Assembly: GCF_004349105.1 (NCBI RefSeq)
Contig: NZ_SMLB01000003.1
Coordinates: forward strand, 186,001-250,000
Reading direction: 5' to 3'
Length of the DNA stretch: 64,000 nucleotides
Source: Jiangella aurantiaca
GTDB taxonomy: Bacteria > Actinomycetota > Actinomycetes > Jiangellales > Jiangellaceae
Below the pieces are notes generated by a model. That model worked only from the letters and a program-made list of their open reading frames with translations. It did not search any database and had not been told where the DNA came from. The number at the start of each line of letters is the position of its first letter. Positions within the stretch are counted from its first letter, which is position 1. Positions 8,970-64,000 of this stretch are shown here, piece after piece. Made by a program: the position numbers and the translations under genes.

Positions 8970-8976
8970 ACGGCGG

Positions 8977-11717: not shown

Positions 11718-11719
11718 GC

Positions 11720-12583
11720 TCACCCCTTCTCGGCCCCGGCGGTGAGGCCCTCGACCAACAGGCGCTCGGCGGCGAAGAACAGCGCGATGACCGGCAGCGT
11801 CAGCAGCACGGACCCCGCCATCAGGACGGTCGCCGACACGCTGATGTCGTCCAGCTGTGCCAGGCCGAGCGAGACCGTCCAGTTGTCCCGGCTCTCGAGC
11901 AGGAAGAGCAGCGCGAACAGGTACTCGTTCCAGGCGATCATGAAGACGTAGAGCGCGGTCGCGGCGATCGACGGCATCGCGAGCGGCAGCACGATCCGGA
12001 CGATCACCTGGACCCGGTTGCAGCCATCGACCATCGCCGCGTCCTCCAGTCCCTGGGGGATGGACCGGAAGTAGTTGCGCAGCATGTACACCGACACCGG
12101 CACCGTCGACGCCAGGTAGATGACGATCAGCGCCGGCAGCTCGCCGCGCAGCCCGAGCCGCGAGAACAGCACGAACAGCGGGATCGCCATGACGATGCCG
12201 GGGAACATGTAGACGGCGAAGAACGAGACGTTGACGACGTTCTTGCCGGGGAAGCGCAGCCGGGTCGCGGCATACGCCCCCAGCACCGACAGGAGCACGG
12301 TCGCCATCACGGACCCGAGCGCGACGATCAGCGAGTTCCCGAAGAACGACAGCAGGCCGTAGCCGCCGTCCTCCGGCGACGCGATCACCCGCCGGTACGC
12401 CTCCAGGTTCAGCTCGCTCGGCGACGGCACGCCGAGCGGGTCCGAGAGCACCGCCTGCAGCGGCCGCACCGACAGCAGCAGCATGTAGAACAGCGGCAGC
12501 ACGCAGGCGACCAGCACGACCGCCAGCCAGAGCACCCGTGCCACCTCGAGGATCCGGGTCTCCACCCGTTCTCGCGATGCCAT
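11720..12583 (-). CDS. Carbohydrate ABC transporter permease (MalG-like)
   Basis: A 287-residue inner-membrane permease of the CUT1 family with six predicted membrane segments. The cytoplasmic EAA loop that contacts the ATPase is visible as EDAAMVDGCNRVQVIVRIVLP near residue 190. Its ATG shares one base with the TGA of the other permease (TGATG), which indicates coupling. No ATPase gene is in the operon, as is common for actinobacterial CUT1 systems that share an MsiK-type ATPase; that sharing is inferred. Confidence 0.93.
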   Translation of the reverse strand: MASRERVETRILEVARVLWLAVVLVACVLPLFYMLLLSVRPLQAVLSDPLGVPSPSELNLEAYRRVIASPEDGGYGLLSFFGNSLIVALGSVMATVLLSVLGAYAATRLRFPGKNVVNVSFFAVYMFPGIVMAIPLFVLFSRLGLRGELPALIVIYLASTVPVSVYMLRNYFRSIPQGLEDAAMVDGCNRVQVIVRIVLPLAMPSIAATALYVFMIAWNEYLFALLFLLESRDNWTVSLGLAQLDDISVSATVLMAGSVLLTLPVIALFFAAERLLVEGLTAGAEKG

Positions 12584-13602: not shown

Positions 13603-13607
13603 GGGCG

Positions 13608-48110: not shown

Positions 48111-50051
48111 TCACTCCTGAACAGGCAGCCAGACCCGCATCGTCGACGGCCCGCGCGCGGCCCACGAGTGGTAGGGCACCAGCCGGATCCGGGCCGGCGT
48201 CGTGGCAGCGTCGGTGCCGGCATCCGCGGCGTACGGCCAGCTGCCGTCGTCGACAGAGGCCAGCGCCCCGACGGCGAGGACCGAGCCGTCGCCGTCGGGG
48301 GAGAGTGGGGCCGCCGGGTCCACCCGGACGGCATCGACGTCGCGGCCGGCGGGCAAGTCGGCCGACTCCGCGCACAGCACCAGCGGGCCGCGCTCGGCGG
48401 CGACGGTGCCGCGAAGCGCGTCGATGCGGGGGTCGGGGCGTACCCAGTGCGGCTCCAGGGGTAGCTCCAGCCGCACCTCGTCGCCGATCGCGAATGCGGC
48501 GGTCACGGACGCGACGCCCGGGCCGACCGGACGGCGGGTGCCGTCCGGCTCGATCAGCGCCGCGCCGTCGGCGGCCCACGCGGGCACCCGCACGGACAGC
48601 GTCCACGGTGCCGGCGACGTCTCGGTGACCCGCAGGACGACGGCGCCGTCGTCGGGGTAGCCGGTGCGCATCTCGAACCCCACCCGCCGGCCTTCTCCGA
48701 GCCGCGTCGACACCTCGGCGTCGGCGTACTGGTGCACCTGCAGGCCGTCGTCGTCGGCCGTGACGAGGTAGGTGGACAGGCTGGCGAACGTGCGGGCCAG
48801 GTTGTTCGGGCAGCAGGACACGTCGAACCACGGCGCCCGGACGCTCGACTCCGCCCGCGGGTGGTGCCGGTCGGTCGCCGGCAGCGGGCCGACGTGGCGG
48901 CGGTGCAGTGTGTTGACGTAGAAGAACGAGCGGCCGTCGTCGGCGGGCGAGGTCGCGACCACGTTGTAGAGCGTCCGCTCGGTCAGGTCCGCGTACCGCA
49001 CGTCGCCGGTCGCCAGCAGCAGCCGCCAGCTCAGCTGCACCGACGCCACCGCGGCGCAGGTCTCGGAGTACGCGCGGTCCGGCGGCAGGAAGAAGTCCTC
49101 GCCGAACGCCTCGTCCATGTGCCGCGAGCCCATGCCGCCGGTGACGTACGTGCGCCGGGCGACGGTCGCCTCCCACTGCCGCTCGATCGCCGCCAGCAAC
49201 TCGTCGTCGCCGGTCTCGACCGCGACGTCGACGGCTCCCGAGGCGAGGTAGAGCGCGCGGACGGCGTGCCCGTGGAACGCGTCGGCGTCGCGGATCGGGA
49301 CGTCGTCCTGGAAGTACGCCCGGCCGAACTCGATGTCGGCGAGCGTGCCGTGGCCGCGGCGGTCGACGAACAGCTTGGCCTGGTGGAGGTAGCGCCGTTC
49401 GCCGGTGGCCCGGTACAGCTCGACCAGCGCCATCTCGATGACGGGGTGCCCGCAGAAACCCTGATTGCCGTCCGGCCCGAAGGTGTCGCAGACGTGGTCG
49501 GCCGCCCGGACCGCGACCTCGACCAGCGGGCTGTCGAAGCCGGTGCGCAGCAGCGCGACGCCGGCCTGGATGAGGTGGCCGTAGCAGTACAGCTCGTGGC
49601 CCCACTCGAGGTCGGAGTAGCGATCGCCCTGACCGGGGTGGCCGAACGCGGTGTTGAGGTAGCCGTCGGGCTCCTGCGCCCGCTCGATCACCTTGGACAG
49701 CTCGGCGATCGACGCCGCGGCGAACGTGTCGCCGGTGCGGGCGACCTCCCAGGCCATCCCTTCGATGAGCTTGTAGACGTCGGAGTCGGAGAACTCGCGG
49801 CCGCGGCGGTCCCGGCCCACCCGGCCCTCCACGACGGCGGCGAAGTTGTCGATCCAGCCGACCCGGCGCTCCCAGCTCAGGTTGTGCTCCAGCGTGGCCG
49901 CAGCATTGACGGACTGCCGGTGGCCCCAGAAGCCCCCGGTGATCCGCACCTCGCGCAGTCCGAGCGGGCGCAGCCGGCCGGTGCTCGGCGCCACGGGCCG
50001 GCCGCCGGTGTCGTCGCGGGCTCCGGCATCGGCGGTCAGGTCGGCGGGCAC
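48111..50051 (-). CDS. GH127 beta-L-arabinofuranosidase
   Basis: A 646-residue family GH127 (formerly DUF1680) enzyme, releasing L-arabinose from short beta-L-arabinofuranosides. The nucleophile cysteine is in SCCPNNLAR (C413/C414), where the family uses a zinc-bound cysteine; acidic ligands are in AFGEDFFLPPDRAYSETCAA near residue 330. EVRITGGFWGHRQ and GHELYCYGHLIQAGVA near 155 are also typical. No signal peptide is seen, so it is cytoplasmic and acts on imported sugar. The start is GTG 50051 with GGAGG ten bases upstream. It follows the sugar ABC genes in one transcription unit. Confidence 0.93.
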   Translation of the reverse strand: MPADLTADAGARDDTGGRPVAPSTGRLRPLGLREVRITGGFWGHRQSVNAAATLEHNLSWERRVGWIDNFAAVVEGRVGRDRRGREFSDSDVYKLIEGMAWEVARTGDTFAAASIAELSKVIERAQEPDGYLNTAFGHPGQGDRYSDLEWGHELYCYGHLIQAGVALLRTGFDSPLVEVAVRAADHVCDTFGPDGNQGFCGHPVIEMALVELYRATGERRYLHQAKLFVDRRGHGTLADIEFGRAYFQDDVPIRDADAFHGHAVRALYLASGAVDVAVETGDDELLAAIERQWEATVARRTYVTGGMGSRHMDEAFGEDFFLPPDRAYSETCAAVASVQLSWRLLLATGDVRYADLTERTLYNVVATSPADDGRSFFYVNTLHRRHVGPLPATDRHHPRAESSVRAPWFDVSCCPNNLARTFASLSTYLVTADDDGLQVHQYADAEVSTRLGEGRRVGFEMRTGYPDDGAVVLRVTETSPAPWTLSVRVPAWAADGAALIEPDGTRRPVGPGVASVTAAFAIGDEVRLELPLEPHWVRPDPRIDALRGTVAAERGPLVLCAESADLPAGRDVDAVRVDPAAPLSPDGDGSVLAVGALASVDDGSWPYAADAGTDAATTPARIRLVPYHSWAARGPSTMRVWLPVQE

Positions 50052-50117: not shown

Positions 50118-50942
50118 TCATCCCTTCAGTGCTCCGGACATGAAGCCGCGCACGTAGTGCCGTTGCAGGAGGACGAAGAGGAGCAGGCAGGGCAGCGCCA
50201 TGATCACGACGCCAGCCTGGGTGGCGCCGAAGTCGACGGCGCCCATGGTCTGCTGCCGCAGCGTGGCGATGGCCAGTGACAGCGGGTACCGCGAGCTGTC
50301 GTTGATCATGAACAGCGGCGCGATGAAGTCGTTCCACGCGTGCAGGAACGCGAACAGCCCGACGGTGATCATGCCCGGCCACACCGCGAACACCAGCACC
50401 CGGCGCAGCACTCCGAACGTGCCGCAGCCGTCCACCAGCGCGGACTCCTCGATCTCGCGCGGGACCGCCTCGAACGAGATGCGCATCATGAACATCGAGA
50501 ACGGCAGCTGGTACAGCGTCAGCACCAGCGCCAGGCCGAACAGCGAGTTGCGCATCCCCAGCTCACCCAGCAGCACCCACAGCGGCACCAGCAGGGTCGC
50601 GTACGGGACCATGAGGATCGCGATGATCAGCAGGAACAGCGCGTCGCGGCCGGGGAACCGGAACCGGGCGAACGCGTAACCGCCCAGCAGCGACAGCCCC
50701 AGGGTGAACACCACGGTGAGGATCGAGACGTACGCGCTGTTCCACAGGTAGGTGGGCAGCCCCGCGTCGTACTCCGTGAGTGTGCGGTAGTTGTTGAAGC
50801 CGTAGCCCTCCTGCTGGGCGGTGGCGCCGTGCGGCGACACCGAGGCGACGGCGGTCCAGATCAGCGGAACCAGGAACATGATCGCCAGCCCGCCGCCGAA
50901 CACCCAGAACGAGGTGCGGCCGATGACCTGCTGCAGTCTCAT
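50118..50942 (-). CDS. Carbohydrate ABC transporter permease (MalG-like)
   Basis: A 274-residue CUT1 permease with six membrane segments, starting SFWVFGGGLAIMFLVPLIWT. The EAA loop is EESALVDGCGTFGVLRRVLV near residue 165. It pairs with the upstream permease, ten bases away. As in the first importer, no ATPase is encoded nearby. ATG 50942. Confidence 0.93.
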   Translation of the reverse strand: MRLQQVIGRTSFWVFGGGLAIMFLVPLIWTAVASVSPHGATAQQEGYGFNNYRTLTEYDAGLPTYLWNSAYVSILTVVFTLGLSLLGGYAFARFRFPGRDALFLLIIAILMVPYATLLVPLWVLLGELGMRNSLFGLALVLTLYQLPFSMFMMRISFEAVPREIEESALVDGCGTFGVLRRVLVFAVWPGMITVGLFAFLHAWNDFIAPLFMINDSSRYPLSLAIATLRQQTMGAVDFGATQAGVVIMALPCLLLFVLLQRHYVRGFMSGALKG

Positions 50943-50952
50943 CCGTCGCCCC

Positions 50953-51894
50953 TCACTCGTCCGCGCCGCGGCGCAGGTAGCGGAACTGGGCGATGTTGAT
51001 GATCAGGAGGACGAGCAGCACGACCACGGACAGCGCGGCTGCCGAGCCGAGGTCGAACCGGCGGAACGCCTCCCGGTAGATCATCATCACCACGGTGGTG
51101 GTGGAGTTGTCCGGACCGCCGTTGGTCAGGATGAAGAACTGGTCGAACGCCAGCAGCGACCCGGTGATCGAGATGATCAGGCACAGGGCGATCGACGGGC
51201 GCAGCAGCGGCAGCGTGATGCGGAAGAACGACTGAACCTTGCTGGCGCCGTCGACCCGGGCGGCCTCGTAGACCTCGTTCGGGATCGACTGCAGCCCGAC
51301 CATGAGGATCAGCATGAAGAACCCGGCGAACTTCCAGACCACCAGCACGATCGACGAGAACAGCGCCATGTTCGGCGTTCCGATCCAGCGGATCGGCTCG
51401 TCGGTGATGCCCAGCCACTCCAGCAGCGGGTCGATCGGGCCGATCTGCGGGCTGTAGAACCCCCAGAACAGCAGCGACGCCGACGCCAGGCCGAGCGAGA
51501 CCGGCAGGAAGTACGCGGTGCGCAGGAACCCGACGCCGCGGCGGCGCTCCTGCACCAGCAGTGCCATCCCCATCGCGAGGACCAGCAGCACCACCACGAC
51601 GATGAGGGTGTACTTCAGCGTGAACCCCACCGCGGGCCAGAACAGCCGGTCGTCGGCGATGCCGGCGTAGTTGTCCGGCAGGTTGATGCCCCGGCTCCCC
51701 TGGAGCAGCGGCCACTCGCTGGCCGACATCTGGCCCACCAGCAGCAGTGGGACCACGAACAGCAGCAGCACGAAGACAGCGGCGGGCGCGGCGTACATCG
51801 CTCCCTTGAACGTCCTGGTGCGCCACCACGCCCGGGAGCTCGGGGTCGGGTGCGCCGGCGGGGCTGCGGACTCCCGCAGGACTGGGCTGGCCAA
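50953..51894 (-). CDS. Sugar ABC transporter permease (MalF-like)
   Basis: A 313-residue CUT1 permease. The EAA loop is YEAARVDGASKVQSFFRITL near residue 215. The start is uncertain: I prefer a TTG at 51894 because AAGAGGAAGG lies eight bases upstream, giving an N-terminal tail (LASPVLRESAAPPAHP) before the first membrane segment (GAMYAAPAAVFVLLLF). There is no in-frame ATG until inside that segment. Confidence 0.88.
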   Translation of the reverse strand: MASPVLRESAAPPAHPTPSSRAWWRTRTFKGAMYAAPAAVFVLLLFVVPLLLVGQMSASEWPLLQGSRGINLPDNYAGIADDRLFWPAVGFTLKYTLIVVVVLLVLAMGMALLVQERRRGVGFLRTAYFLPVSLGLASASLLFWGFYSPQIGPIDPLLEWLGITDEPIRWIGTPNMALFSSIVLVVWKFAGFFMLILMVGLQSIPNEVYEAARVDGASKVQSFFRITLPLLRPSIALCLIISITGSLLAFDQFFILTNGGPDNSTTTVVMMIYREAFRRFDLGSAAALSVVVLLVLLIINIAQFRYLRRGADE

Positions 51895-51974
51895 GCGATG
51901 GGTCCTTCCTCTTGCTGGGGCGGCGGGACGGGGACCGGTGGGGCCGCGGAGGGAGCGGCCCCACCGGGAGCCGG

Positions 51975-53288
51975 TCAGCTCTGCAGTGACGCGTCGACCG
52001 CCTCGTTGTCCTGTTCCAGCGTCGTGCCGTCGCCGAACACGTAGTTGCGCACCAGCGGCAGCCACGGGCCCTGCGGGTCGTTGAACGTCTCGCCGAACCG
52101 CAGCGAGTACGGCGTGCGCCCGACCCCGGCGACCTCGTTGATGGTCACCAGCCGCGGGTCCTGGTCGGAGTACTCGTTCGACGCGAGGTCGGTGCGGGCG
52201 ACGACGTCGCGGTTCTGCGCCACGACCTCGACCTGTGCCTCGTCGCCTAGGGTCCAGGCGATGAAGTTCCACGCCGCGTCCGGGATCTCGCTGTTGCTGG
52301 AGATGCCGACCGCGTCACCGCCGACGAACGTCGACTCGCCGCCGTCGACACCCGGGATCGGCGCCACGCCGGTCTCGAACGTGTCGGGCATGAGGCCGAG
52401 CGTCGTGGACGGCATCGGCATGATGCCGATGTTGCCCTCGGGGAACACACCGGTCCACGTCGGGCCGGCCTCGTCCTGAGTGCCCGGCGCGACGATGTCG
52501 TCCTCGACGAGGCCCTTCCAGACGTCGTAGACGGCCTGAGCCTCGGGCTCGGCGAGGAAGGACTCCGTGCCGTCCTCGTTCATGACGTCGGCGCCGGCGG
52601 CCCAGATGCTCGGCCACCAGGTGAACACGTAGCAGCCGCCGCAGTTGCCGCCGAAGAACGTCCCGCTGACGTCGCCGCCGAGGGCGTCGATGGCGCGGGC
52701 GTGCTCGGCGAACTCCTGAAGCGTGGTGGGTGGCGCCTCGGGGTCGAGGCCGGCCTGCTCGTAGAGGCTCTTGTTGTAGAACAGCACGGACAGGTCCATG
52801 GTGTGCGGCACGACGTGCTTGGCGTCGTCGAGCGTGCCGACCTCGATGTGCGACTGCGCGAGGTCGTCGGCGAACGGCAGCGCGTCGATGCGGTCGGTGA
52901 TGTCGAGGTACGCGCCGGCGGTGGTGAACTGCGGCACGAACACCACGTCGAGGCTGAGCACGTCGGGCAGCTCGCCCGCGCCCGCGGCCGTGCCGACGCG
53001 TGGCAGGTAGTCGTCGGTCGGGATGACCGTCAGCTCGACTTGGTTCTCGTGGCTGGCGTTGTAGGCGTCGACGAGCCGCTGGGACTGCGGTTCGGTGGCC
53101 GCCCGCGTCCACATGGTGATGGTGCTGCCGTCGTCGACCCCCTCGGCCAGCGCCTCCGGCGAGGAGCCGCCGTCGTCGTCGCCGCCCGTGGTGCCGGTGT
53201 CGTCGTCACCGCCGCAGGCGCTCATCACGAGCGCCAGCACAGCAGCGGTCACGGCCGTCGTCGCCCGTGTCCTGGTACTACGTCGCAT
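51975..53288 (-). CDS. Sugar-binding lipoprotein of the GH127-linked ABC importer
   Basis: A 437-residue extracellular solute-binding protein. The lipobox LVMSAC ends at C25, followed by GGDDDTGTTGGDDDGG. The mature domain starts ITMWTRAATEPQSQRL. It contains a distinctive GNCGGCYVFTWWP near residue 220 with two close cysteines. The ATG at 53288 has GGGAGAC upstream. It leads the operon that continues to two permeases and GH127, and is divergent from a LacI gene. Confidence 0.93.
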   Translation of the reverse strand: MRRSTRTRATTAVTAAVLALVMSACGGDDDTGTTGGDDDGGSSPEALAEGVDDGSTITMWTRAATEPQSQRLVDAYNASHENQVELTVIPTDDYLPRVGTAAGAGELPDVLSLDVVFVPQFTTAGAYLDITDRIDALPFADDLAQSHIEVGTLDDAKHVVPHTMDLSVLFYNKSLYEQAGLDPEAPPTTLQEFAEHARAIDALGGDVSGTFFGGNCGGCYVFTWWPSIWAAGADVMNEDGTESFLAEPEAQAVYDVWKGLVEDDIVAPGTQDEAGPTWTGVFPEGNIGIMPMPSTTLGLMPDTFETGVAPIPGVDGGESTFVGGDAVGISSNSEIPDAAWNFIAWTLGDEAQVEVVAQNRDVVARTDLASNEYSDQDPRLVTINEVAGVGRTPYSLRFGETFNDPQGPWLPLVRNYVFGDGTTLEQDNEAVDASLQS

Positions 53289-53580: not shown

Positions 53581-54606
53581 ATGAACAACGCCGTGCCGTC
53601 GTCGGCCTCGCGCAAGGTGACGTTGAACGATGTCGCCCGCCTGGCCGGGGTCTCGGTCGCCACCGCGTCCAAGGCACTCAACGGTCGCAAGCAGGTGCGC
53701 GCCGAGACCCGCGCGCGCGTCGTCGAGGCGGCCGAACAGCTCTCGTTCTCGCCGAACGAGCTGGCCCGCAGCCTGCTCGCCGATCGCACGGGTACCGTCG
53801 GCCTGCTCACGAACGACCTCGAGGGCCGGTTCTCCATCCCGATCCTCATGGGTGCCGAAGACGCGTTCGGCGCCGACAGCGTGGCCGTCTTCCTGTGTGA
53901 CGCCCGTGGTGACGCCATCCGCGAGAAGCACCACGTCCAGGCGCTGCTCAGCCGGCGGGTCGACGGCCTCATCGTGGTGGGCAGCCGCACCGACCCGCGG
54001 CCGTCCCTCGGTCGCGAGCTGCCGGTCCCGGTCGTCTACGCGTACGCGCCGTCGGAGGACCCCGAGGACCTGTCCATCGTGGTCGACAACGTCGGCGCCG
54101 GCCGCAGCGCCGTCGACCACCTCGTCTCCACCGGGCGCACCCGCATCGCCCACATCACCGGCGACCCCACCTACGGTGCCTCGCAGGAGCGCGCCGAGGG
54201 TGCGCTCGCCGCGCTCGCCGACCACGGCCTGTCGCTGGTCGGCGAGGTCCGGTTCGGGTCGTGGACGGAGAGCTGGGGGCGCGCTGCGGCGTCCATGCTG
54301 CTCGGCCAGCATCCCGAGCTCGACGCCATCCTCTGCGGCAGCGACCAGGTGGCCCGCGGCGTGATGGACGCGTTGCGGGAACACGGCCGCACCGTGCCCG
54401 ACGACGTCGCGGTCATGGGCTTCGACAACTGGGAGATCTTCACCAGTGGCGCCCGTCCGGCCCTGACCAGCGTCGACATGAACTTCGAACGGCTCGGACG
54501 GGTGGCGGCGCAGCGTCTGTTCGCCGCCATCGACGGCGAGCCACGGTCCGGGGTCGAGGCGCTGGACACCCGGGTGGTGATCCGCGGCTCGACCGTGCCC
54601 GGGTGA
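53581..54606 (+). CDS. LacI family transcriptional regulator
   Basis: A 341-residue LacI/GalR repressor. The N-terminal HTH and hinge are KVTLNDVARLAGVSVATASK with ALNGRKQV (residues about 12-40), followed by SPNELARSLLADRTGTVGLL. The periplasmic-binding-like sensor includes SEDPEDLSIVVDNVGAG and DVAVMGFDNWEIFTSGARPA near 285. It binds a sugar and releases operators. Divergent from the importer and directly upstream of the surface/hydrolase genes, it is the likely controller of the island. ATG 53581. Confidence 0.94.
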   Translation: MNNAVPSSASRKVTLNDVARLAGVSVATASKALNGRKQVRAETRARVVEAAEQLSFSPNELARSLLADRTGTVGLLTNDLEGRFSIPILMGAEDAFGADSVAVFLCDARGDAIREKHHVQALLSRRVDGLIVVGSRTDPRPSLGRELPVPVVYAYAPSEDPEDLSIVVDNVGAGRSAVDHLVSTGRTRIAHITGDPTYGASQERAEGALAALADHGLSLVGEVRFGSWTESWGRAAASMLLGQHPELDAILCGSDQVARGVMDALREHGRTVPDDVAVMGFDNWEIFTSGARPALTSVDMNFERLGRVAAQRLFAAIDGEPRSGVEALDTRVVIRGSTVPG

Positions 54607-54645: not shown

Positions 54646-54659
54646 TGTGAACGCTAACA
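54646..54659 (+). promoter_or_regulatory. LacI-type operator TGTGAACGCTAACA (site 1)
   Basis: A 14-bp near-palindrome TGTGAACGCTAACA, with outer GGTG/CACC extending the symmetry, 86 bases before the WxL-like gene. It fits the TGTTAGCGCTAACA class of LacI-family sites with the central CG. An exact inverted copy lies at 56549. Confidence 0.75.
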
Positions 54660-54741
54660 ACACCGCCGGTGCCTTGCAGTGTGCGTTCCAGGGACGGCCG
54701 ATCGGCCGGCCCTCCGGCTTCACCGACGGAGAGGTTCGAAG

Positions 54742-55419
54742 ATGAGCACACGTCATGTCAGACCGCTGATTTCCTTTTCCCCGTTGGACTCGCCGCCGCC
54801 TGGGACCTCGCGGTCGGCCTTCAGGCTGATCCTGGCCGCACTCGGCCTGGTGGCCCTTGGCCTCGCCGCCTCCGCGACGGCAGCGGTGGCGGACGAGGAG
54901 GAGGGGGTCGATCTGTCGGTCGTCATCGACGACATCACCCCACCCGGCCAGCTCACCCTCACGGTCGCGCTGAACGACGGCGTCGTCCTGACCGAGGAGG
55001 GGTCCGACGACACCGCCCGGCAGTTCACCGGCACGCTCCCGACCGTGACGGTCAGCGACACCCGCACCGCCGAGGAGATCCCGGACGGCGCGTTCTGGGC
55101 CGTCGTCGGCCGGGCCAGCGACTTCGTCGGTGGCGACAACACCATCGGCGCGGAGCACCTCGGCTGGCGGCCGCAGCTGCTGTCGCCCTCGCCGACCGGC
55201 AACGTCGCCGAGGGCGAGCCGGTCTCCAGCGTCATCCCCGACGGCACCAGCGCACCCGCCGTCGGCCTCGTCGGCCAGGAGCTGCTGGTCTCGACGTTCA
55301 GCGCGGAGGAGGAGACCGGGAGCTGGGACGTCACCGCCGAGCTGGCGCTGCGAACGCCGACGGACGTCGAGCCGGGCGAGTACCACTCGGTGCTGACGCT
55401 GTCGCTGTTCGACCAGTGA
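54742..55419 (+). CDS. Secreted WxL-like surface protein
   Basis: A 225-residue secreted protein. A signal peptide with hydrophobic core LILAALGLVALGLAASATAA ends near residue 50. The mature part is beta-rich, with TVTVSDTRTAEEIPDGAFWA and VGRASDF, LGWRPQLLS, and SWDVTAELALRTPTDVEPGE near the end, which resemble the two halves of WxL domains. I infer WxL-like from this; the classic motif is not exact. It precedes a DUF916-like membrane protein by 14 bases. In Firmicutes the two types act as a pair on the cell wall. A LacI operator lies upstream. Confidence 0.7.
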   Translation: MSTRHVRPLISFSPLDSPPPGTSRSAFRLILAALGLVALGLAASATAAVADEEEGVDLSVVIDDITPPGQLTLTVALNDGVVLTEEGSDDTARQFTGTLPTVTVSDTRTAEEIPDGAFWAVVGRASDFVGGDNTIGAEHLGWRPQLLSPSPTGNVAEGEPVSSVIPDGTSAPAVGLVGQELLVSTFSAEEETGSWDVTAELALRTPTDVEPGEYHSVLTLSLFDQ

Positions 55420-55432
55420 CCTCAGTGCGCCC

Positions 55433-56485
55433 ATGAGCAGCCTTCCTCGCGCGGTGACGCGGACGCTCGCGGCCGCGGTGCTCGCCGCGGCCGCGCCGAT
55501 CGCGCCGGTCGCTCTGGCGGGCGCCGCCGACGCGCCGATCACGTGGTCGGTGCGGCCGGCGGACGAGCACGGCCCGGATGGCCGCCGGGTCATCGACGTC
55601 GTGCTGGAGCCGGGCCAGCGGGTCGTCGAGCACGTCGCCGTGACCAACCACTCGGCGGTGCCGGTGACGTTCTCGATCAGCGCGAACGACGGCTACCTCA
55701 CCGAGCGCGGCAGCTTCGACATGCTGCCGTCCGACACGCCGCCGATCGACGGCGGCGCGTGGCTCGGCGTCCCGGAGCAGGCCACGGTCGGCGCCGGCGA
55801 GTCGGTCGTCGTCCCGGTGGAGGTCGCCGTGCCCGAGACCGCCGAGCCGGGCGACCACCCGGCCGGCATCGCGGCGTCGATCCTCTCCACCGGATCCGAG
55901 GTGGCGGTCGAGAGCCGGGTCGGCGTGCGGGTGAACCTCACGGTCGCCGGCGAGGCCGTGGCGGCGCTGGACGCGACGATCATCGACGTCTCCTACGAGC
56001 CGTCGTGGAACCCGTTCGCCCCGGGCGACCTGGTCGTTCACTACGAGGCGGTCAACACCGGCACCGTCGCCGCGTCCGCGGCCGCGGTCGCGGGCGCCAC
56101 CACGTTGCTCGGCGACGTGGACGAGGTGGACGGTGGCGAGCCGCGCGAGCTGCTACCCGGCGGCCGGATCGAGCAGTCGGTGCGGGTATCCGGCGTCTGG
56201 CCGCTCGGGCCGGTCGACGCCCGGCTCGCCGTCGAGCCGCTGCTGGACGAGGCATCGACGGTGTCCGCCGCGCCGGCCATGGTGACGCTGACCGCGACCG
56301 CGTGGGCACTTCCGCTCGCGCAGCTCCTGCTGCTGCTCCTGCTCGTCCTGCTCGTGCTCGTCGTGCGGCGCCTGCTGCGCCGGCGCCGAGCTCGGCTGGA
56401 GGAGCTGCTCGCCCAGGCTCGGGCCGAGGGCGCCGCCGCGGCCCGCGCGGACGGCCGGCCACACGTGACCACCGACACCGCGTGA
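55433..56485 (+). CDS. DUF916-like cell-surface membrane protein
   Basis: A 350-residue protein: a signal peptide (about residues 1-35), a beta-sandwich extracellular region with ITWSVRPADEHGPDGRRVID and VEVAVPETAEPGDHPAGIAA, typical of the DUF916/WxL-partner proteins, then one C-terminal membrane helix (PLAQLLLLLLLVLLVLVVRR) and an Arg-rich cytoplasmic tail. It would stand on the membrane and hold the secreted partner or bind peptidoglycan. ATG 55433. It ends 63 bases before the second operator. Confidence 0.78.
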   Translation: MSSLPRAVTRTLAAAVLAAAAPIAPVALAGAADAPITWSVRPADEHGPDGRRVIDVVLEPGQRVVEHVAVTNHSAVPVTFSISANDGYLTERGSFDMLPSDTPPIDGGAWLGVPEQATVGAGESVVVPVEVAVPETAEPGDHPAGIAASILSTGSEVAVESRVGVRVNLTVAGEAVAALDATIIDVSYEPSWNPFAPGDLVVHYEAVNTGTVAASAAAVAGATTLLGDVDEVDGGEPRELLPGGRIEQSVRVSGVWPLGPVDARLAVEPLLDEASTVSAAPAMVTLTATAWALPLAQLLLLLLLVLLVLVVRRLLRRRRARLEELLAQARAEGAAAARADGRPHVTTDTA

Positions 56486-56548
56486 AGAGGTGATCCGCTG
56501 ACCCTTCCCACCGCCGCACCGCCGCGGCGCGACGTGATCCGGACGCGT

Positions 56549-56562
56549 TGTTAGCGTTCACA
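56549..56562 (-). promoter_or_regulatory. LacI-type operator TGTTAGCGTTCACA (site 2)
   Basis: The exact reverse complement of site 1, 32 bases before the ATG of the large hydrolase. Two identical 14-bp sites in front of two neighbouring units strongly suggest one regulator for both. Confidence 0.78.
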
Positions 56563-56594
56563 TTTCCTGGTTCCCCGATGGAGAGGACATGGTG

Positions 56595-59500
56595 ATGTCG
56601 GGACGAACTTTCAGACGAGCCATCGCGACCGCGACCAGCGGTGTGATGGCCTGCGGCGGCCTGGTGCTGTTACCGGGCTCCGCGTACGCGGATTCGCACG
56701 TACTGCCGGGCAACGAGAGCGACGTCGGCCTCTACACCGACGGCCTGACCGACACGATGGACATCGGCGACCCCACGTACCTCAACGAGGACCAGGTCGC
56801 GGCCGCGCTCGAGCCGGGCGTGCCGTACACCGCGGGGAGCATGCACCAGTCGATCTTCGAGAAGGACCTCGCCGCCGGCGGCACCGACTACTACCTGGAC
56901 CGCATCCTCGGCGTCCGCGGGACCAGCGGCAACAACGTCCTGCAGACCCGCGGCCGCACTCTGTACATGCGCGGCGGCAGCAACTTCGGCGTCATGGGGT
57001 TCGCGGGCAGTGCCTTCGCCGGCGGGCCGAACAACCTGGGCAACCTCTACACCGTCAGCGTGCCCGGCCAGACGGTCGCCGAGGTGGGCGCCGAGCGGTT
57101 CAACGCCCCCAGCCACGCGAAGGGCCGCTACACCATCGGCACGACCGGCGTGGTCGCCCAGCAGACGAAGTTCATCACCTACGACAACGTGGCCGTCACC
57201 GCGCTCACGTTCAGCAACCCGGGCACCGCGCCCGTCACGTTCACGGTCCGCGCGGCCTCGCCGCTGGCCACCACGTCGACTGACGCGGCGGACGAGCTGA
57301 CCGGCACCCGCACGCTGACCAGCGGGGCCAACAACGGCCTCATCGACACGCCGTGGTCGCGGGTGACGATCGGGCTCAAGGCGGCCGGCTTCACGCGCAA
57401 CGGCACCAACCTCGACCGCGAGGTCACCGTGCCCGCGGGCGGATCGGTCGACCTGTCCGTCGTCGGCGCCCTGTACTCCGACACGATGCCCGACTCACGG
57501 ACCAGCTTCTACGACTACGTGGAGCTGGCGCCGGCGGAGGCCGCCCGCACCGCGATCACCGAGTTCAACCGCCGCTGGGCGGCCGACATCCCCTACATCG
57601 ACGTGCCCAGCGCGGCCGTCGAGAAGGCGATCGTCTACCGCTGGTGGGGTGAGCGCTACAACAGCCTGGACGCGAACGAGCCGGGCTACGTCTACCAGTA
57701 CCCGACCACGATCGAGGGCGTGAACCTCTACCAGAACGCCGTCGCGCTCACGCAGCCGATGCACCTGCAGGACACGAAGTGGATCCGCAACCCGTACCTC
57801 GCCTACGGGCAGATCCTCAACATCGGTGAGCTGTCCGGGTCGTCGGCCTTCCTCGACAGCCCCGGGCACACCAGCTGGAACAACCACTACTCGCAGTACC
57901 TCGGCACCGCCGGGCTGGAGGCGTACAACGTCCACGGCGGCGGCGCGGCGATCGCGGATCGGTTCGCCCGGTACTTCGAGGGTGACGGCGAGGGCCAGCT
58001 CGAGCACTACGACGGCAACGGCGACAACCTCATCGCCTACGACACCAACTTCATGCCTGGCAACGACTCCGACGCCATCAGCTTCGGCTACCCGAAGGTC
58101 AACGCCGGCGCACCCGGCGCCCGGACGATCGAGCGGCCGGAGTCGGCGTACGTGTGGGGCGACTTCGACGCCGCCCGCCAGCTCTACGAGCTCGCCGGCG
58201 CGGACCCGGCGAAGGTCACGGAGGTGGGCGCGAAGGCCGACCAGATCCGCGACGCGATCCTCGGCCGGCTGTGGAGCCAGGAGATGCGGATGTTCCTCGC
58301 CGGCACGTCGCACGGCGCGACATCGGGCGGAACACAGAACCCGCTGACCGAGGCCGAGCGCGACCTCATCCCGGCCAAGGAGTCGAACCTCTACGACGTC
58401 TACGCGCAGAACCTCATCCCGTTCGAGGACTACGAGACCTACGTCGACGGCTTCCGGTTCCTGCGCTACGGCGACAACTTCCCGATCTTCCCGTTCTATA
58501 CGGCGAACCAGTGGGACAAGACGAAGTTCGGGGTCGGCGGGTCGAACAACTTCTCCAACATCAACTTCACCGTGCAGTACCGCGCCGTGCGCTCCGCGCT
58601 GCGGCACTACGACCCGGAGCAGAAGTACGTCACGCCGGAGTACGCCGCCCGGCTGCTGGACTGGATGGCGTGGAGCATCTACCCGAACGGTGACGCCCGC
58701 GTGGCCAACCAGGCCGAGTACTACTCGAACTGGAACCCGACGGCGCGCACCTACAGCCGCAACAACCAGAACCACATCATGCTCGGCAACATGAACTACA
58801 TCTACGTCGAGGACATGGGTGGCATCCAGCCGCGGTCCGACGACGTGATCGAGCTGTGGCCGATCGACCTCGGCTACGACCACTTCATGGTCAACAACCT
58901 GCGCTACCACGGCAAGGACATCACGATCGTGTGGGACCGGGACGGCTCCCATTACGGCCTGGGCGCGGGCTACAGCCTGTTCGTCGACGGCGAGAAGAAG
59001 GCCACGGCCGACGCGCTCGGCCGGTTCGTCTACGACCCGAACACGAACGAGATCGTGGAGGCCGACGATGGCTTGAACGTCACCGTCGCCGCCACGGGCG
59101 CCGAGCTACCGACCGCCAAGGACACCTCGATCGACGACGAGCGCGTCGTGTCGTACCTGCGCACCGCCGGCATCGACCTCGGCGAGGACGCGCCGAACCT
59201 GGCGCCGGGCGCCGCGCTGTCGTCCTCGTTCACCCAGCAGGGCGTGCGCCCGACGCCGTGGCGGCAGTTCCACACGCCCGGCTGGAGCACCGGCTCGATG
59301 AACTACACGCCGGGTGCCATCAGCGAGACGGAGCGCCCGGTCTCGCTGGATGCCGTGACCGACGGCGTCACGATCAACGAGCCGTACTGGGGCAACTACG
59401 GCACCACCGAGCCGGGCGGCTACGTCGAGCTCGACTTCGGCGAGCCGGTCCGGTTCGACAACGTCAAGGTGTGGTTCGTCAGCGACCGCCAGGCCGGCGG

Positions 59501-61301
59501 CTACCGCGAGCCGCAGCGCTACACCATCCAGGTGCCGGATGGGAACGGCGGCTGGGTCACCGTCCCGGACGCGTTCAAGTCGCCGAAGATCCCCGGCGCC
59601 AAGTTCAACGAGGCGCTGTTCGACGCCGTCACGACCGATCGGGTGCGGGTGGCCTTCACCAACACCCCGTCCTTCTACACCGCGATCTCGGAGATTCAGG
59701 TCTTCGACTCCGGCCGCGAGGTGCCGGACGTGGTCAACGACCCGCCGACGGTGACGGTGAACGTCGATCGGTCCCGCGACGGCAACCTGTCCACGAACCT
59801 GGCCGGCACGGTCACCGACGACGGCATCCCGGACACCGGTGAGCTCACCTACGGCTGGTCGACGGTCTCGAAGCCGGACGGCGCCGGCGTCATCTTCGGC
59901 GCGCCGAACGCCCTGACCACGTCCGTCACCGGCACCGTCGCGGGGACGTACGTGTTCCGGCTGACGGCGTCCGACGGCGAGCTGACCACCCAGCGCGACG
60001 TCGAGGTGGCGCTCACCGAGAAGCCGACGTCCGCCGAGTTCGGCGCGCTGGCCACGATCACCACCAGCGGCAGCGCGCCGTGGGAGAACCCGCTGCGCGT
60101 CAACGAGTCGACCACGCCGGCCAGCTCGTCACCCGGCGCGGGCAACGGCTGGGGGTCGTGGGGCCAGCCGAACAACGGCACCAGCGTGGCGACCACGGCG
60201 TGGATCCAGTACAAGTGGGACTCCCCGGTGCTGCTCGGGTCCACGGACATCTACTGGTATGACGACAACGGCGGCACCCGGATGCCCAGGCCCGACACGT
60301 ACGTCATCGAGCACTCGACGGACGGCCAGACCTGGACGCCCGTCACGCTCACCGGTACGTCGACGTACGCGGGCGCGCTGACCCGCAACGCGTACAACCA
60401 CCTCGACTTCGAGCCGGTGACGACGAGCCACCTGCGCATCCGCATCTTCGGCGTGCAGGGCTCCGGCGCCGGGACGGGCGTGCTGCGGTGGCGGGCCAAC
60501 GGCGACATCGTCAGCCAGGTGGCCAGCCCCGTGTTGATGCGGACCGTGGTCGGCGAGGTCCCGGTGCTGCCGGCCGAGCTCGACGTCCAGTACTCCAGCG
60601 GCCCGCGGGGCACGCTACCGTTCACCTGGCAGCCGATCACGCCGGAGATGGTGGCCGAGACCAATGTCGAGCCGTTCGTCGTCTACGGCACGAACACGAC
60701 GAACGGTCTCATCGCCGAGGCCCGGATCTACGTGCGGCCGGAGAACTCGCAGGGCGGCATCTCGATCCAGGGCGCCCAGCAGTTCGAGCAGACCGTCGAC
60801 GTCGGCGAGCTGCCGCACCTGCCGACGAAGGTGGAGGTGTCGTACAACGACGGCTCGCGCGACAACCAGGCGATCGGTGTCGACTGGGACTTCGACGAGT
60901 CGATCGTGAACACGCCCGGCGTGTACACGATCACCGGCGACCTGATCCTGCCCGACTACGTGAGCGAGGCGGGCACGACGTCCACCACGCTCACGCTGAC
61001 GGTGGGCGACGGCATCGCGCCGGTGGACGTGTCGGTGACCACCGAGGTGCGCTGCCTCGGGCGGCGGGCGTTCGTCGCCGTCCGGGCGACGAACGGGGAG
61101 ACCGTGCCGCTCGACATCACCCTCGCGACGGCGTACGGGACCCGGTCGCTGTCGGACATCGAGCCGGAGGCGGCCGCGTACCAGATGTTCGCCACCCGGC
61201 TGGCCAGCGTGCCCGCCGGCGAGGTGACGGTCACCGCCACCGCCGAGGACGGCAGGCAGGCAGTGGTCGTGGACGACTACCCGGCGCTCACCTGCGGGTG
61301 A
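56595..61301 (+). CDS. Large secreted multimodular glycoside hydrolase (candidate GH121-like)
   Basis: A 1568-residue secreted protein. Signal peptide about 1-33 (ending GSAYADS). Residues about 40-830 are a helical (alpha/alpha)6-type hydrolase region, with AYVWGDFDAARQLYELAG, SNNFSNINFTVQYRAVRSAL and VIELWPIDLGYDHF. Then a discoidin-like domain (about 868-1045), a PKD-like domain (1048-1145), a second discoidin-like domain (1145-1308), bacterial Ig-like domains (1310-1470) and a terminal domain. I use ATG 56595, eight bases after AGAGG; ATG 56589 is too close. GH121 (beta-L-arabinobiosidase) is my preferred reading because GH127 and GH43 are neighbours; this is context-based. Confidence 0.72.
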   Translation: MSGRTFRRAIATATSGVMACGGLVLLPGSAYADSHVLPGNESDVGLYTDGLTDTMDIGDPTYLNEDQVAAALEPGVPYTAGSMHQSIFEKDLAAGGTDYYLDRILGVRGTSGNNVLQTRGRTLYMRGGSNFGVMGFAGSAFAGGPNNLGNLYTVSVPGQTVAEVGAERFNAPSHAKGRYTIGTTGVVAQQTKFITYDNVAVTALTFSNPGTAPVTFTVRAASPLATTSTDAADELTGTRTLTSGANNGLIDTPWSRVTIGLKAAGFTRNGTNLDREVTVPAGGSVDLSVVGALYSDTMPDSRTSFYDYVELAPAEAARTAITEFNRRWAADIPYIDVPSAAVEKAIVYRWWGERYNSLDANEPGYVYQYPTTIEGVNLYQNAVALTQPMHLQDTKWIRNPYLAYGQILNIGELSGSSAFLDSPGHTSWNNHYSQYLGTAGLEAYNVHGGGAAIADRFARYFEGDGEGQLEHYDGNGDNLIAYDTNFMPGNDSDAISFGYPKVNAGAPGARTIERPESAYVWGDFDAARQLYELAGADPAKVTEVGAKADQIRDAILGRLWSQEMRMFLAGTSHGATSGGTQNPLTEAERDLIPAKESNLYDVYAQNLIPFEDYETYVDGFRFLRYGDNFPIFPFYTANQWDKTKFGVGGSNNFSNINFTVQYRAVRSALRHYDPEQKYVTPEYAARLLDWMAWSIYPNGDARVANQAEYYSNWNPTARTYSRNNQNHIMLGNMNYIYVEDMGGIQPRSDDVIELWPIDLGYDHFMVNNLRYHGKDITIVWDRDGSHYGLGAGYSLFVDGEKKATADALGRFVYDPNTNEIVEADDGLNVTVAATGAELPTAKDTSIDDERVVSYLRTAGIDLGEDAPNLAPGAALSSSFTQQGVRPTPWRQFHTPGWSTGSMNYTPGAISETERPVSLDAVTDGVTINEPYWGNYGTTEPGGYVELDFGEPVRFDNVKVWFVSDRQAGGYREPQRYTIQVPDGNGGWVTVPDAFKSPKIPGAKFNEALFDAVTTDRVRVAFTNTPSFYTAISEIQVFDSGREVPDVVNDPPTVTVNVDRSRDGNLSTNLAGTVTDDGIPDTGELTYGWSTVSKPDGAGVIFGAPNALTTSVTGTVAGTYVFRLTASDGELTTQRDVEVALTEKPTSAEFGALATITTSGSAPWENPLRVNESTTPASSSPGAGNGWGSWGQPNNGTSVATTAWIQYKWDSPVLLGSTDIYWYDDNGGTRMPRPDTYVIEHSTDGQTWTPVTLTGTSTYAGALTRNAYNHLDFEPVTTSHLRIRIFGVQGSGAGTGVLRWRANGDIVSQVASPVLMRTVVGEVPVLPAELDVQYSSGPRGTLPFTWQPITPEMVAETNVEPFVVYGTNTTNGLIAEARIYVRPENSQGGISIQGAQQFEQTVDVGELPHLPTKVEVSYNDGSRDNQAIGVDWDFDESIVNTPGVYTITGDLILPDYVSEAGTTSTTLTLTVGDGIAPVDVSVTTEVRCLGRRAFVAVRATNGETVPLDITLATAYGTRSLSDIEPEAAAYQMFATRLASVPAGEVTVTATAEDGRQAVVVDDYPALTCG

Positions 61302-61404: not shown

Positions 61405-64000
61405 ATGACGACCCTTCGCCGCCGCGCGCGGCTCACCCGGAGCGGGCCGGCCGCCATCGCCGCCGTGCTCGCCGCCGGCCTGCTCGGCCCGGTCGCACCC
61501 GCGGCCGCCGCCGACCCGTACACGTTCACGAACACCGTGAACCCGATCCTCGGAGACGGCAGCTACTACTCCGCCGACCCCGCGCCGCTGGTGGTGCCGG
61601 CCGGCGCGCCGGGCAACGACACCGGCGCCGACCAGCTCTACATCTACACCGGCCATGACGAGGCCGGCCCGACCCGCAACGACTTCATCATGAACGAGTG
61701 GGGCGCGTTCGTGACCTCCGACGTCGACGCCGGCGAGTGGACCCACCACCCGTCGCTCATGCGCCCGGAACAGGTGTTCAGCTGGGCGACGCCCGGCCGT
61801 GCCTACGCCGGGCAGGTCGTGCGTGGCGTCGACGGCCGCTACTACTGGTACGTCCCGGTGAACGAGGCGGCCAGCCCGGCCAGCGACAAGTTCGGCATCG
61901 GCGTCGCGGTCTCGGACACCCCGACCGGGCCGTGGACCGACCACGTCGGCGCCCCGATCATCTCCCAGCGGGTGCCCACCCCGAACACCATCCACAACAT
62001 CGACCCGACCATCCTCATCGACGGCGAGGCGCCGAACCAGCGCGTGTACGTCTACTGGGGCAGCTTCGGGAACCTGCGCATGCTCGAGCTGGCGCAGGAC
62101 ATGAAGACGCCCATCGGGTCCGTGCGCACCGTCAGCGGGCTGACCGGCTTCTTCGAGGCCGCGTGGATCTTCGAGCGCAACGGCACCTACTACCTGGCCT
62201 ACGCCGGCAACAACGCCGGGCCGACGTCGCCGTGCACGCCGGCGAACTACCACGCGTGCATCGCCTACGGCACGGCCTCCTCACCGGAGGGGCCGTGGAC
62301 GTACCGCGGGACGATCCTGCCGCCGGTGTCGTCGACCACCAGCCATCCGGGCATCGTCGAGTTCGGCGGGCAGTGGTGGCTGGCCTATCACACCGCCGAC
62401 GCCGTCGGCGGGAACCACTTCCGCCGCTCGGTGGCGATCGACCGGGTGGAGTGGGACGACACCCAGTCGCCGCCGCGGATCAAGCCGGTCGTGACCACGC
62501 CGCCGAAGGTCAAGGACGTCACGCCGCGGGCCAACGCCGCCCAGGAGGCCACCGTCACGGTCTCGAACACGCCGGTGCCGACGCAGTACTGGGTCAAGGC
62601 GCTCAACGACGAGATCGTGCGGCCCAACCCGCTGCCGCCGGACATGTGGGGCACGTGGACCGGCAACAACCCGCCGCAGCAGTGGGTCCAGTACACCTGG
62701 GACCGGCCGATGCGCCTGGCCGGCTCGCAGATCGAGTTCTGGAACGACCAGCCGCAGGGCACCGGCGTCGGCGTCGCGGCGCCGGCGTCGTGGAAGATCC
62801 AGTACTGGGACACGTCCGCCGGCGGGCAGTGGCGCGACGTGCCGAACCCCAGTGGCTACGGCACCGCCACGAGCGGTTTCCAGGACACCACGTTCGGTCC
62901 CGTGACGACGACGCAGGTGCGCGCGGTGTTCGACGCCTCGACCAACGGCAGCACGTACTCGGCCGTCGCGGTGGAGGAGTGGAAGGTGCTCGCGGAGCAG
63001 CCCGCCTCCGTGACGGCGCCGCCGATCACGGTCGAGATCGGGGAGACCGAGGTCCCGGGCGAGGTGCCGGTGACGTTCCCGTCGTCGGACGAGACCCTGC
63101 GGATCCCGGCGTTCTGGGACGCGCTCGACCCCGAGGACGTCGCGACGCCCGGCACGCTCACCGTCGAGGGCTCCGTCCTCGGCTACGCCGGTGGCCGGGT
63201 GACCGCACCGGTCACCGTCATCGACCCGAGCGACACCGAGGGCGACGAGACCGCGCCGGTGGTGACGCTGACCCCCAGCGGCAGCGCCGGTAGCGCCGGG
63301 TGGTTCCGCTCGGACGTGCGGGTCCGGGTCGCCGGCACCGACGATCGCGGCGGCCGGGTCACCATCGAGTCGGTGGTCGACGGCGGCGCGCCGGTCGCGA
63401 CCGGCTTCGTGCGCTACACCGATGTCGTCGTCTCCGGCGACGGGCAGCACACCCTCGTCGCGCGCGCCACGGACCGGGCCGGCAACACGTCGGACGACGC
63501 GAGCCTCACTGTCAAGATCGACCGGGTCGCGCCGGTGAGCACGCCGAGCGTCGACGAGGCGAACCGCACGGTGACGGTGTCGGCGACCGACGCCACGTCG
63601 GGCCTGGCCCGCATCGAGTACGCGATCGGCACGGGCGGGCAGTGGCTGCCGTATGACGGTCCGGTCGCGGCGCCGGACTCGCAGCGGCACCAGGTGTTCT
63701 TCCGGGCAACCGACGCCGCGGGCAACGTCGAGACGGCGAAGTCGGCGGTGATCCCGGCGGACATCTCCGGCCCGCTGACCGGCAACGTCGCGCCGCTGGG
63801 CACCGCCACCGCGTCCTACACGGCCGGCTGGAACTCCGTCGGCGCGCTCAACGACGGCCTAGACCCGGCGACCCCGAGCCAGGCCCAGATCTGGGGCACC
63901 TGGTCCGGCACCCGGCCGGCCAGCCAGTGGATCCAGTACACGTGGGCACGGCCGATCCGGCTCACCGGCGCGGAGATCAAGTTCTGGCGCGACCAGCCCA
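61405..64000 (+). CDS. Secreted GH43 arabinan-type hydrolase, partial at right edge
   Basis: At least 865 residues, open to the window end. A signal peptide (about 1-36) precedes a GH43 five-blade propeller. The catalytic residues are visible: base D58 in YYSADPAPLVV, D200 in HNIDPTILIDGE and acid E251 in GFFEAAWIFERNG. A discoidin-like module (about 372-528), a bacterial Ig-like domain (532-610), an Ig-like repeat (about 615-790) and a second discoidin-like module (from 796) follow. GAGGAGACG-type TGAGGAGACG precedes ATG 61405. GH43 enzymes include arabinofuranosidases and xylosidases; arabinose release fits the neighbours. The modules resemble those in the upstream hydrolase. Confidence 0.9.
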   Translation, partial: MTTLRRRARLTRSGPAAIAAVLAAGLLGPVAPAAAADPYTFTNTVNPILGDGSYYSADPAPLVVPAGAPGNDTGADQLYIYTGHDEAGPTRNDFIMNEWGAFVTSDVDAGEWTHHPSLMRPEQVFSWATPGRAYAGQVVRGVDGRYYWYVPVNEAASPASDKFGIGVAVSDTPTGPWTDHVGAPIISQRVPTPNTIHNIDPTILIDGEAPNQRVYVYWGSFGNLRMLELAQDMKTPIGSVRTVSGLTGFFEAAWIFERNGTYYLAYAGNNAGPTSPCTPANYHACIAYGTASSPEGPWTYRGTILPPVSSTTSHPGIVEFGGQWWLAYHTADAVGGNHFRRSVAIDRVEWDDTQSPPRIKPVVTTPPKVKDVTPRANAAQEATVTVSNTPVPTQYWVKALNDEIVRPNPLPPDMWGTWTGNNPPQQWVQYTWDRPMRLAGSQIEFWNDQPQGTGVGVAAPASWKIQYWDTSAGGQWRDVPNPSGYGTATSGFQDTTFGPVTTTQVRAVFDASTNGSTYSAVAVEEWKVLAEQPASVTAPPITVEIGETEVPGEVPVTFPSSDETLRIPAFWDALDPEDVATPGTLTVEGSVLGYAGGRVTAPVTVIDPSDTEGDETAPVVTLTPSGSAGSAGWFRSDVRVRVAGTDDRGGRVTIESVVDGGAPVATGFVRYTDVVVSGDGQHTLVARATDRAGNTSDDASLTVKIDRVAPVSTPSVDEANRTVTVSATDATSGLARIEYAIGTGGQWLPYDGPVAAPDSQRHQVFFRATDAAGNVETAKSAVIPADISGPLTGNVAPLGTATASYTAGWNSVGALNDGLDPATPSQAQIWGTWSGTRPASQWIQYTWARPIRLTGAEIKFWRDQP

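Follow-up and report, generated by a model that had tools for sequence, protein, structure and literature searches.

A WxL-like and WxLIP-like gene pair in an arabinoside island of Jiangella aurantiaca, and a shared hydrolase domain that may dock to it

The stretch of DNA analysed here, referred to throughout as the window, comprises 64,000 nucleotides of Jiangella aurantiaca (contig NZ_SMLB01000003.1, positions 186,001 to 250,000), and the two genes with which this account is concerned lie at 54742..55419 and 55433..56485 on its forward strand, separated by a gap of 13 bases. The first encodes P0001, a small WxL-like secreted protein of 225 aa with a hydrophobic segment at its N-terminus, and the second P0002, a WxLIP/DUF916-like protein of 350 aa that consists of a signal segment, a DUF916-like domain, a second extracellular region, a C-terminal membrane helix and a basic tail. 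The pair sits between the gene for a LacI-family regulator (53581..54606, +, identified by profile matches) and that for a secreted GH121 beta-L-arabinobiosidase-like enzyme of 1570 aa (56589..61301, +), which is followed by a secreted GH43 enzyme (61405..64000, +) that continues beyond the end of the window. Upstream of the pair and divergent from it, on the reverse strand, profile matches identify a sugar ABC importer, made up of a substrate-binding protein (51975..53288) and two permeases (50953..51960 and 50118..50942), together with a GH127 beta-L-arabinofuranosidase-like enzyme (48111..50051) that is apparently cytoplasmic. The 1570-residue enzyme matches the NCBIfam model HypBA2 over residues 110-867 with 562 bits (E 2.6e-168), and as this lies below the equivalog cut-off of 3200 it is here called GH121-like. 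Judged by its genes (HypBA2-like GH121, GH127, ABC importer, LacI regulator, then GH43), this is an arabinoside island. Rfam and tRNA scans of the 64-kb window returned nothing.

Orthologues of P0001 occur in five other Jiangella genomes at 88-91% identity, with the order LacI gene, pair, GH121 gene kept in these five, which shows P0001 and P0002 to be real genes. Among named organisms, P0002 has its closest relatives in Jiangella species. The first-pass annotation of this DNA had described a secreted beta-rich protein followed by one with a membrane helix, and this description stands: both open reading frames are present, and a beta-sandwich is predicted for P0001. Relative to its five orthologues, P0001 of the present genome has some 20 extra residues ahead of the hydrophobic part of the signal segment (window 54742-54850).

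The AlphaFold model of P0001 has a beta-sandwich core, with a mean pLDDT of 82.6 and averages of 88-97 for the ten-residue blocks from residue 71 onwards. P0001 itself gives no Pfam match to PF13731 (WxL) at E<=1, and a match to the Pfam family PALP (E 0.0045) was rejected as due to chance. It is homologous to larger WxL-like proteins of Jiangella, and the best of two Jiangella relatives scanned, L053, matches PF13731 with E 6.5e-4 and 20.2 bits against a cut-off of 25. In an alignment of 33 small WxL-like proteins the first WxL motif takes the form W-x-V, with W119 and V121 invariant, and the Asp-x-Arg that precedes the first Trp is kept (D106 and R108 invariant), as is an invariant GWxP; the second Trp-x-Leu is not conserved among these 33 proteins, P0001 having TLSL with the Trp absent. 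Compared as a profile with three WxL proteins of Enterococcus, this alignment gave no significant match (E 0.085-0.15), the register of D-x-R being the same in the non-significant hhalign alignments to two Enterococcus WxL proteins, and kinship with WxL therefore rests on the L053 match and on the pairing of the genes. A sequence search with the three Enterococcus WxL queries found no WxL entry in the PDB.

For P0002, PF06030 (DUF916) matches residues 55-147 at E 0.001, with 19.5 bits against a cut-off of 27.3, a threshold exceeded by relatives of the protein (L082, 31.0 bits; L054, 28.9; a paralogue on contig 34, 39.1). Aligned by hhalign, the P0002-type alignment (A4) matches an Enterococcus DUF916-DUF3324 WxLIP at E 7e-5 (probability 63%), while the PDB entries for EfmWxLIP1, 9i1y and 9i25, are matched by the same alignment at E 0.03 only. 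P0002 has no Pfam match to DUF3324 (PF11797) at E<=1, and the WxLIP motif NQIDKxxxYFDLK is not present in it, a GPDGR-type sequence standing in its place. Its hydrophobic segment near residue 292 is followed by eight K/R, the tail after the helix being 39 residues long, and in a hydropathy analysis 31 of 33 P0002 relatives have more K/R after the membrane segment than before it; since the positive-inside rule holds in these 31, the helix would most naturally be placed in the bacterium's own membrane, unlike the placement of WxLIP in the host membrane that is proposed in the available portion of PMC10599100.

Comparison with the Firmicutes systems, as set out in the accessible parts of PMC10599100 and PMC9772566, brings out both likenesses and differences. 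In both cases a small secreted WxL-type protein goes together with a DUF916-type protein bearing a C-terminal membrane helix, the D-x-R...W motif is common to both, and relatives of P0002 pass the PF06030 cut-off. Unlike the Firmicutes WxL/WxLIP systems so described, the locus here has no dual Trp-x-Leu and no DUF3324 match, large WxL and LPxTG proteins were not found among the genes called around it, and the partners are hydrolases whose C-terminal domain is of another kind. Because dual Trp-x-Leu, DUF3324 and LPxTG are absent and the Pfam scores lie below their cut-offs, the two proteins are probably best termed WxL-like and WxLIP-like, neither being a family member by strict tests. The family assignment made at first pass (WxL/DUF916) thus survives as a likeness and loses these three hallmarks, and its description of such pairs as Firmicutes systems was too narrow, as they are also present in Actinobacteria.

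As had also been remarked at first pass, the pair lies behind the same operator as the hydrolase: the sequence TGTGAACGCTAACAA is found as an exact match upstream of the pair (54646..54660, +) and, inverted, upstream of the GH121 gene (56548..56562, -). These are its only two sites in the window even when up to 3 mismatches are allowed (0.22 expected; 3 of 100 shuffles reach 2). Across the genome the 14-base core of the operator occurs, with at most one mismatch, at five sites including these two (reversed control, 0), the third lying before a LacI gene that adjoins araA/aldolase/FGGY-kinase genes, the fourth ahead of a sugar ABC operon, and the fifth where an ABC operon that includes an alpha-L-arabinofuranosidase begins. 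With two core forms considered and at most one mismatch to either, a core site lies ahead of the pair in 6/6 pair loci and ahead of GH121 in 4/4 pair-less Jiangella loci. Because core sites recur at the pair, at GH121 and at other arabinose genes, the pair and the enzymes look like one arabinose regulon under a candidate LacI-type operator. A shared operator would also suit the pair being a surface sensor or adhesin that is merely co-regulated with the enzymes, and the membrane helix with its short basic tail, as well as the location of other Jiangella pairs next to metal-type and Pst-like transporters, might be read in the same way; but a tail of 39 residues leaves no room for a cytoplasmic signalling domain, and such a role would leave unexplained the correlation with a C-terminal domain of the enzymes described below, so that we consider it highly unlikely.

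The domain in question, here called the CTD, comprises approximately 100 residues and is common to the C-termini of the GH121-like enzyme and the next GH43. In the former it is an Ig-like domain with two cysteines, encoded at 60996..61298 (+) and recognised by a profile match and by AlphaFold, for which we propose a docking function; that of the GH43 lies outside the window, at C36:250249-250545. The AlphaFold model is an Ig-like sandwich of seven strands (pLDDT 94.7). Both cysteines are present in 21 of 28 sequences and both are absent in the other 7, and this joint presence or absence suggests that they form a disulfide. CTDs scanned alone (6 and 4 examples; Pfam and NCBIfam) gave chance-level matches only, a Pfam match to DUF1353 (E 0.13) being rejected on this ground, sequence searches of the PDB gave nothing better than E 0.01, and Foldseek returned no match to the model at E<=0.001 (best E 2.1e-3), its top rows being assorted folds, many of them Ig-like. 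A CTD profile found 97 matches in 1567 proteins (a set in which some loci are counted twice, L042 and L076, for example, being from the same genome), and in 96 of the 97 the match ends no more than 11 residues from the C-terminus. The whole J. aurantiaca genome contains two CTD matches, both at this locus directly after the pair. Searches of the open literature by names such as WxL and DUF916 found no paper on the CTD, nor one on this pair beside hydrolases in Actinobacteria; DUF916 and metallophosphatases do appear among the genes neighbouring a domain of which a Microbacterium form has also been studied, according to the available text of PMC12537917. One CTD-rich locus contains a call for a gene of 140 residues that holds little beyond a CTD and has no Pfam match (L101:6366-6788); it may represent part of a longer gene.

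In order to see the pair in its wider setting, 80 loci were collected by P0002-type similarity alone, in which a simple gene finder called 71 WxLIP-like genes (ten loci gave none and were left out, while L117 gave two). A WxL-type gene lies at most three genes upstream or two downstream of 66 of the 71, the other five being at a locus edge, and in 39 cases a small WxL-like gene (<=260 aa) lies directly upstream. Around these 39 small pairs, genes were classed as near if within 2 genes on the same strand and as far if at least 4 genes away on either strand, those in between, or near on the other strand, belonging to neither set. Genes of at least 700 aa account for 44/104 of the near set vs 12/265 of the far set, and among genes of at least 500 aa the CTD is present on 42/47 near genes (37/42 without Jiangella) vs 5/39 far ones; since near genes served as seeds for the CTD model, the figure of 42/47 is not fully independent. 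A CTD protein is found within 2 genes on the same strand for 29/39 small pairs, and anywhere in the locus for 34/39. The 31 of the 47 near genes that were scanned are mostly GH43, GH127, GH121-like, GH51-type, GH92 and other secreted enzymes, and also include GH30-type, pectate-lyase-like, purple acid phosphatase, nucleotidase, PQQ, GSDH and amidohydrolase proteins, while BLAST identifies seven of the 47 as GH121-like, at 37-93% identity to the enzyme in the window, three of these seven coming from Jiangella. The first-pass annotation had named the recurrence of the pair beside secreted hydrolases in other actinobacteria as a check on its idea, and a pair found mostly away from hydrolase genes as a result that would speak against it: for small pairs it was the former that was found.

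Independent looks at the association were provided by two plasmid loci, a set of 396 genomes from the phylum, a set of 199 genomes from one family, and the genomes of the Jiangella family. The plasmid loci, which lay outside the CTD model, have three (Clavibacter phaseoli) and four (Cellulosimicrobium protaetiae) CTD proteins around the pair; around a pair on a Streptomyces plasmid, in which the WxL-like protein is larger, there are none. In the phylum set, among the matches listed, small WxL-like matches (>200 bits) occur in four genomes and the CTD in six, including those four. In the family set, again among the matches listed, the small-WxL profile (E<=1e-30) matches 14 genomes and the CTD (E<=1e-8) 27, the CTD being present in 14/14 of the small-WxL genomes vs 13/185 of the others (Fisher p 1.8e-14, shared ancestry ignored), with a mean of 7.9 CTD matches per genome where there is a small-WxL match and 1.3 where there is none. 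Of the small-WxL matches listed in this set, 30/32 are no more than 6 kb from a CTD (1.2 expected) and 19/32 directly after a CTD gene, within 600 bases and on the same strand, while WxLIP-like genes (E<=1e-10), on the same footing, are present in 64/199 of the genomes and 22/27 of those with a CTD. In one of the 14 genomes (G437) the small-WxL match lies within a 905-residue protein, far from its CTD.

A strict rule that the CTD occurs only with the pair had to be rejected, since among the matches listed 13/27 CTD genomes have no small-WxL match, five of these 13 being also without a detected WxLIP-like gene. Sixteen of 18 regions fetched surround CTD matches, and only one of these 16 (L160) has a WxL-like/WxLIP-like pair nearby. 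Arg68 is present in 0/17 CTDs from genomes without a small-WxL match (one of which, from L169, is not C-terminal) vs 35/38 near pairs; the CTDs so fetched form a divergent subtype, although this split was noticed afterwards. In other genera of the Jiangella family, ten genomes contain one CTD match (G018, of a sister genus, on another contig, in a genome without a P0001 match) and a weak one (G002). In keeping with the association, the GH121-like proteins of two genomes of a sister genus lack the CTD, and no pair adjoins them. A nearby GH127 enzyme (L018, 5986-9075) is without a CTD. Pairs without CTDs also exist: 5/39 small pairs, all of one lineage, have no CTD protein in the locus. The two of these that were inspected, of Cellulosimicrobium type (L080 and L090, ~6000-14000), lie between genes that we take from their sequences to be Tad-pilus-like and prfB/ftsEX-like. 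Two source labels in the collection look wrong: L092 (Sphaerisporangium) matches like L090 of Cellulosimicrobium funkei, and L140 (Planococcus) looks actinobacterial. In L123:9929-11221 and L145:9998-11347 the WxLIP-like proteins have, besides an additional hydrophobic segment, a sortase-like motif (LPATG or LARTG), and both cysteines are absent from the neighbouring CTDs.

Such CTDs without pairs, and pairs without CTDs, count in favour of an alternative in which the pair binds polysaccharide or the wall alone, the CTD is an independent wall or sugar module, and the two co-occur merely because both belong in plant-polymer loci; it may be added that an Ig-like domain on a secreted enzyme is often a module of general use. 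Set against this are the facts that both CTDs of the present genome are beside the pair, that the CTD has other residues in genomes lacking the pair (see below), and that the enzymes bearing CTDs are unrelated to one another, with phosphatases, a PQQ-domain protein and an amidohydrolase among them, which makes one shared glycan target less likely. On balance we regard this alternative as rather unlikely.

The genus Jiangella itself offers a comparison of genomes with and without the pair. Of 12 genomes, ten have GH121 and six the pair, so that four keep GH121 without it; strong CTD matches are found on GH121 and on the following GH43 in all ten, with a further match in four genomes (E 4e-19 to 4e-17) and a weak one in a fifth (1.8e-7), while the two genomes that have neither GH121 nor a P0001 orthologue gave no CTD match. 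Since CTDs are retained in the pair-less species, persistence of the enzymes does not depend on the pair. In a tree of three locus genes, one pair-less genome, G012, nests among the pair carriers (support for the node with G014 and G005, 0.965). Four columns of about 1551 residues in GH121 split carriers from pair-less genomes perfectly, and two of these lie in the 100-residue CTD. At CTD residues 26-28 (F-V-A; 61071..61079, +), F26 is replaced by V in 4/4 pair-less genomes and A28 by E, D or S, and M64 (61185..61187, +) is L in 3/4 pair-less GH121 sequences. GH121 of G012 departs from the invariant carrier residue at 4/59 CTD sites vs 14/1165 elsewhere (p 0.009). In the GH43 CTD, 6/6 pair carriers have AYQSF where 4/4 pair-less genomes have (D/S/E)Q(S/T)L, and the carrier G009 keeps AYQSF on a background near that of the pair-less sequences; in all, 12 GH43 columns split the two groups, four in the CTD and eight at 687-779. 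The C-terminal half of the G012 GH43 (L182 / L072:15751-17601) has residues in common with the pair-less species, although the genes of its locus fall with those of carriers, which suggests a recombinant, and GH43 is therefore weaker evidence, its changes not being independent. CTD residues 26, 28, 62 and 64 may form one exposed face, since they have the same parity on strands 24-33 and 60-66.

Elsewhere in Jiangella, WxL-like/WxLIP-like pairs are found beside what are, to judge by their sequences, presumably a metal-type anchored-repeat ABC transporter and a Pst-like phosphate cluster (L017:8489-11072; L047-L055, L057), and the module may therefore serve several nutrient systems.

The most economical account of these observations is that the pair is a membrane-anchored receptor holding CTD-tagged hydrolases at the cell surface, to which we would assign a probability of roughly 0.55. 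P0001 and P0002 would form a surface complex in which P0002, fixed in the cell's own membrane by its C-terminal helix with the DUF916-like domain outside, holds the small P0001, by analogy with what has been proposed for WxLIP and WxL in Firmicutes. The complex would capture secreted enzymes by their CTD, here the GH121-like enzyme and the GH43, and release of arabino-oligosaccharides from (putatively) plant hydroxyproline-rich glycoproteins would in this way be kept close to the ABC importer, all parts being co-expressed under a LacI-type arabinose operator. The observations behind this reading are the gene order, the shared operator, the shared CTD, the co-occurrence, and the residue changes that track absence of the pair; the main counter-evidence lies in the CTDs without pairs and the pairs without CTD enzymes, and the counts share ancestry. 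That the pair might tether hydrolases had been put forward at first pass, and it is favoured here on the ground that a single C-terminal domain, common to the enzymes, goes with the pair, an argument drawn from sequence comparison. Stated more generally, the CTD would be a docking tag read by small WxL-like/WxLIP-like complexes, an undescribed form of actinobacterial surface display with no cohesin or sortase that would hold GH121-like, GH43, GH127, GH92, phosphatase and other giant enzymes; we would put the odds on this wider proposal at about even.

A further alternative is that the pair acts as a PapD-like extracellular assembly chaperone, aiding the folding or export of very large CTD enzymes and then releasing them. 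Foldseek gave no match to the P0001 model at E<=0.001, its top rows being pilins and GH123 chains, and the nearest folds listed are pilin-like, with a chaperone-usher CFA/I tip adhesin chain (Z 8.1, rmsd 3.4, 118 aligned) among them, a resemblance that suits a chaperone system, although a Z near 8 is within the tool's own stated background. The size of the near genes is also in keeping with this idea, as is the description of WxLIP, in the available part of PMC10599100, as a pair of Ig domains, set perpendicular to each other, by which the WxL sandwich is completed; but four Jiangella retain both enzymes without the pair, and a chaperone role seems distinctly improbable. In the boldest version of the receptor reading, the small WxL-like protein would in addition polymerise by donor-strand exchange, an idea prompted by the fact that the closest folds listed are chaperone-usher pilins and that the monomer model gives a poor placement to a conserved VDVxVxI-type segment near the N-terminus; this we hold to be a long shot.

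Returning to the proposed receptor for CTD-tagged enzymes, several known systems offer points of comparison. In cellulosomes, enzymes are held via cohesin-dockerin interactions, and there, as in the present proposal, several enzymes are held by one shared C-terminal module; unlike the cellulosome, the module here is an Ig-like sandwich, and no Pfam match to cohesin or dockerin was found in the pair, in GH121 or in 31 neighbouring proteins scanned. The beta-arabinooligosaccharide system HypBA1/HypBA2 of Bifidobacterium longum combines GH121, GH127 and an ABC importer just as is found here; its HypBA2 is described, in the portion of PMC7263609 available, as anchored by its own FIVAR-transmembrane tail, whereas the Jiangella GH121 has the CTD at that end and the pair is added. 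For WxL/DUF916 clusters of Firmicutes, a role in the use of plant polysaccharides was proposed in 2006 (PMC1534035, accessible text), and the cscABCD genes of Lactobacillus plantarum described in that text resemble the present case in being a proposed plant-sugar surface complex, with CscA a DUF916 protein and with catabolite-type control; in contrast to cscABCD, the locus here has no CscC (large WxL) and no CscD (LPxTG), and has CTD glycoside hydrolases beside the pair. Given that 2006 proposal, the general kind of complex is already known; what appear to be new, within the literature searched by name, are the hydrolase tag and the actinobacterial form of a WxL-type surface complex.

To our knowledge, it is poorly understood by what means soil actinobacteria, in the absence of cellulosomes and sortase tags, retain very large secreted enzymes close to the cell. 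If the present reading is true, one C-terminal domain together with a two-gene receptor would provide a testable answer to this question of enzyme retention, and the residue differences in pair-less Jiangella point to the surface of the CTD that would be concerned. The function of many genes now listed as "DUF916" or hypothetical would in that case become predictable, and the CTD would be usable as a tag for enzyme display.
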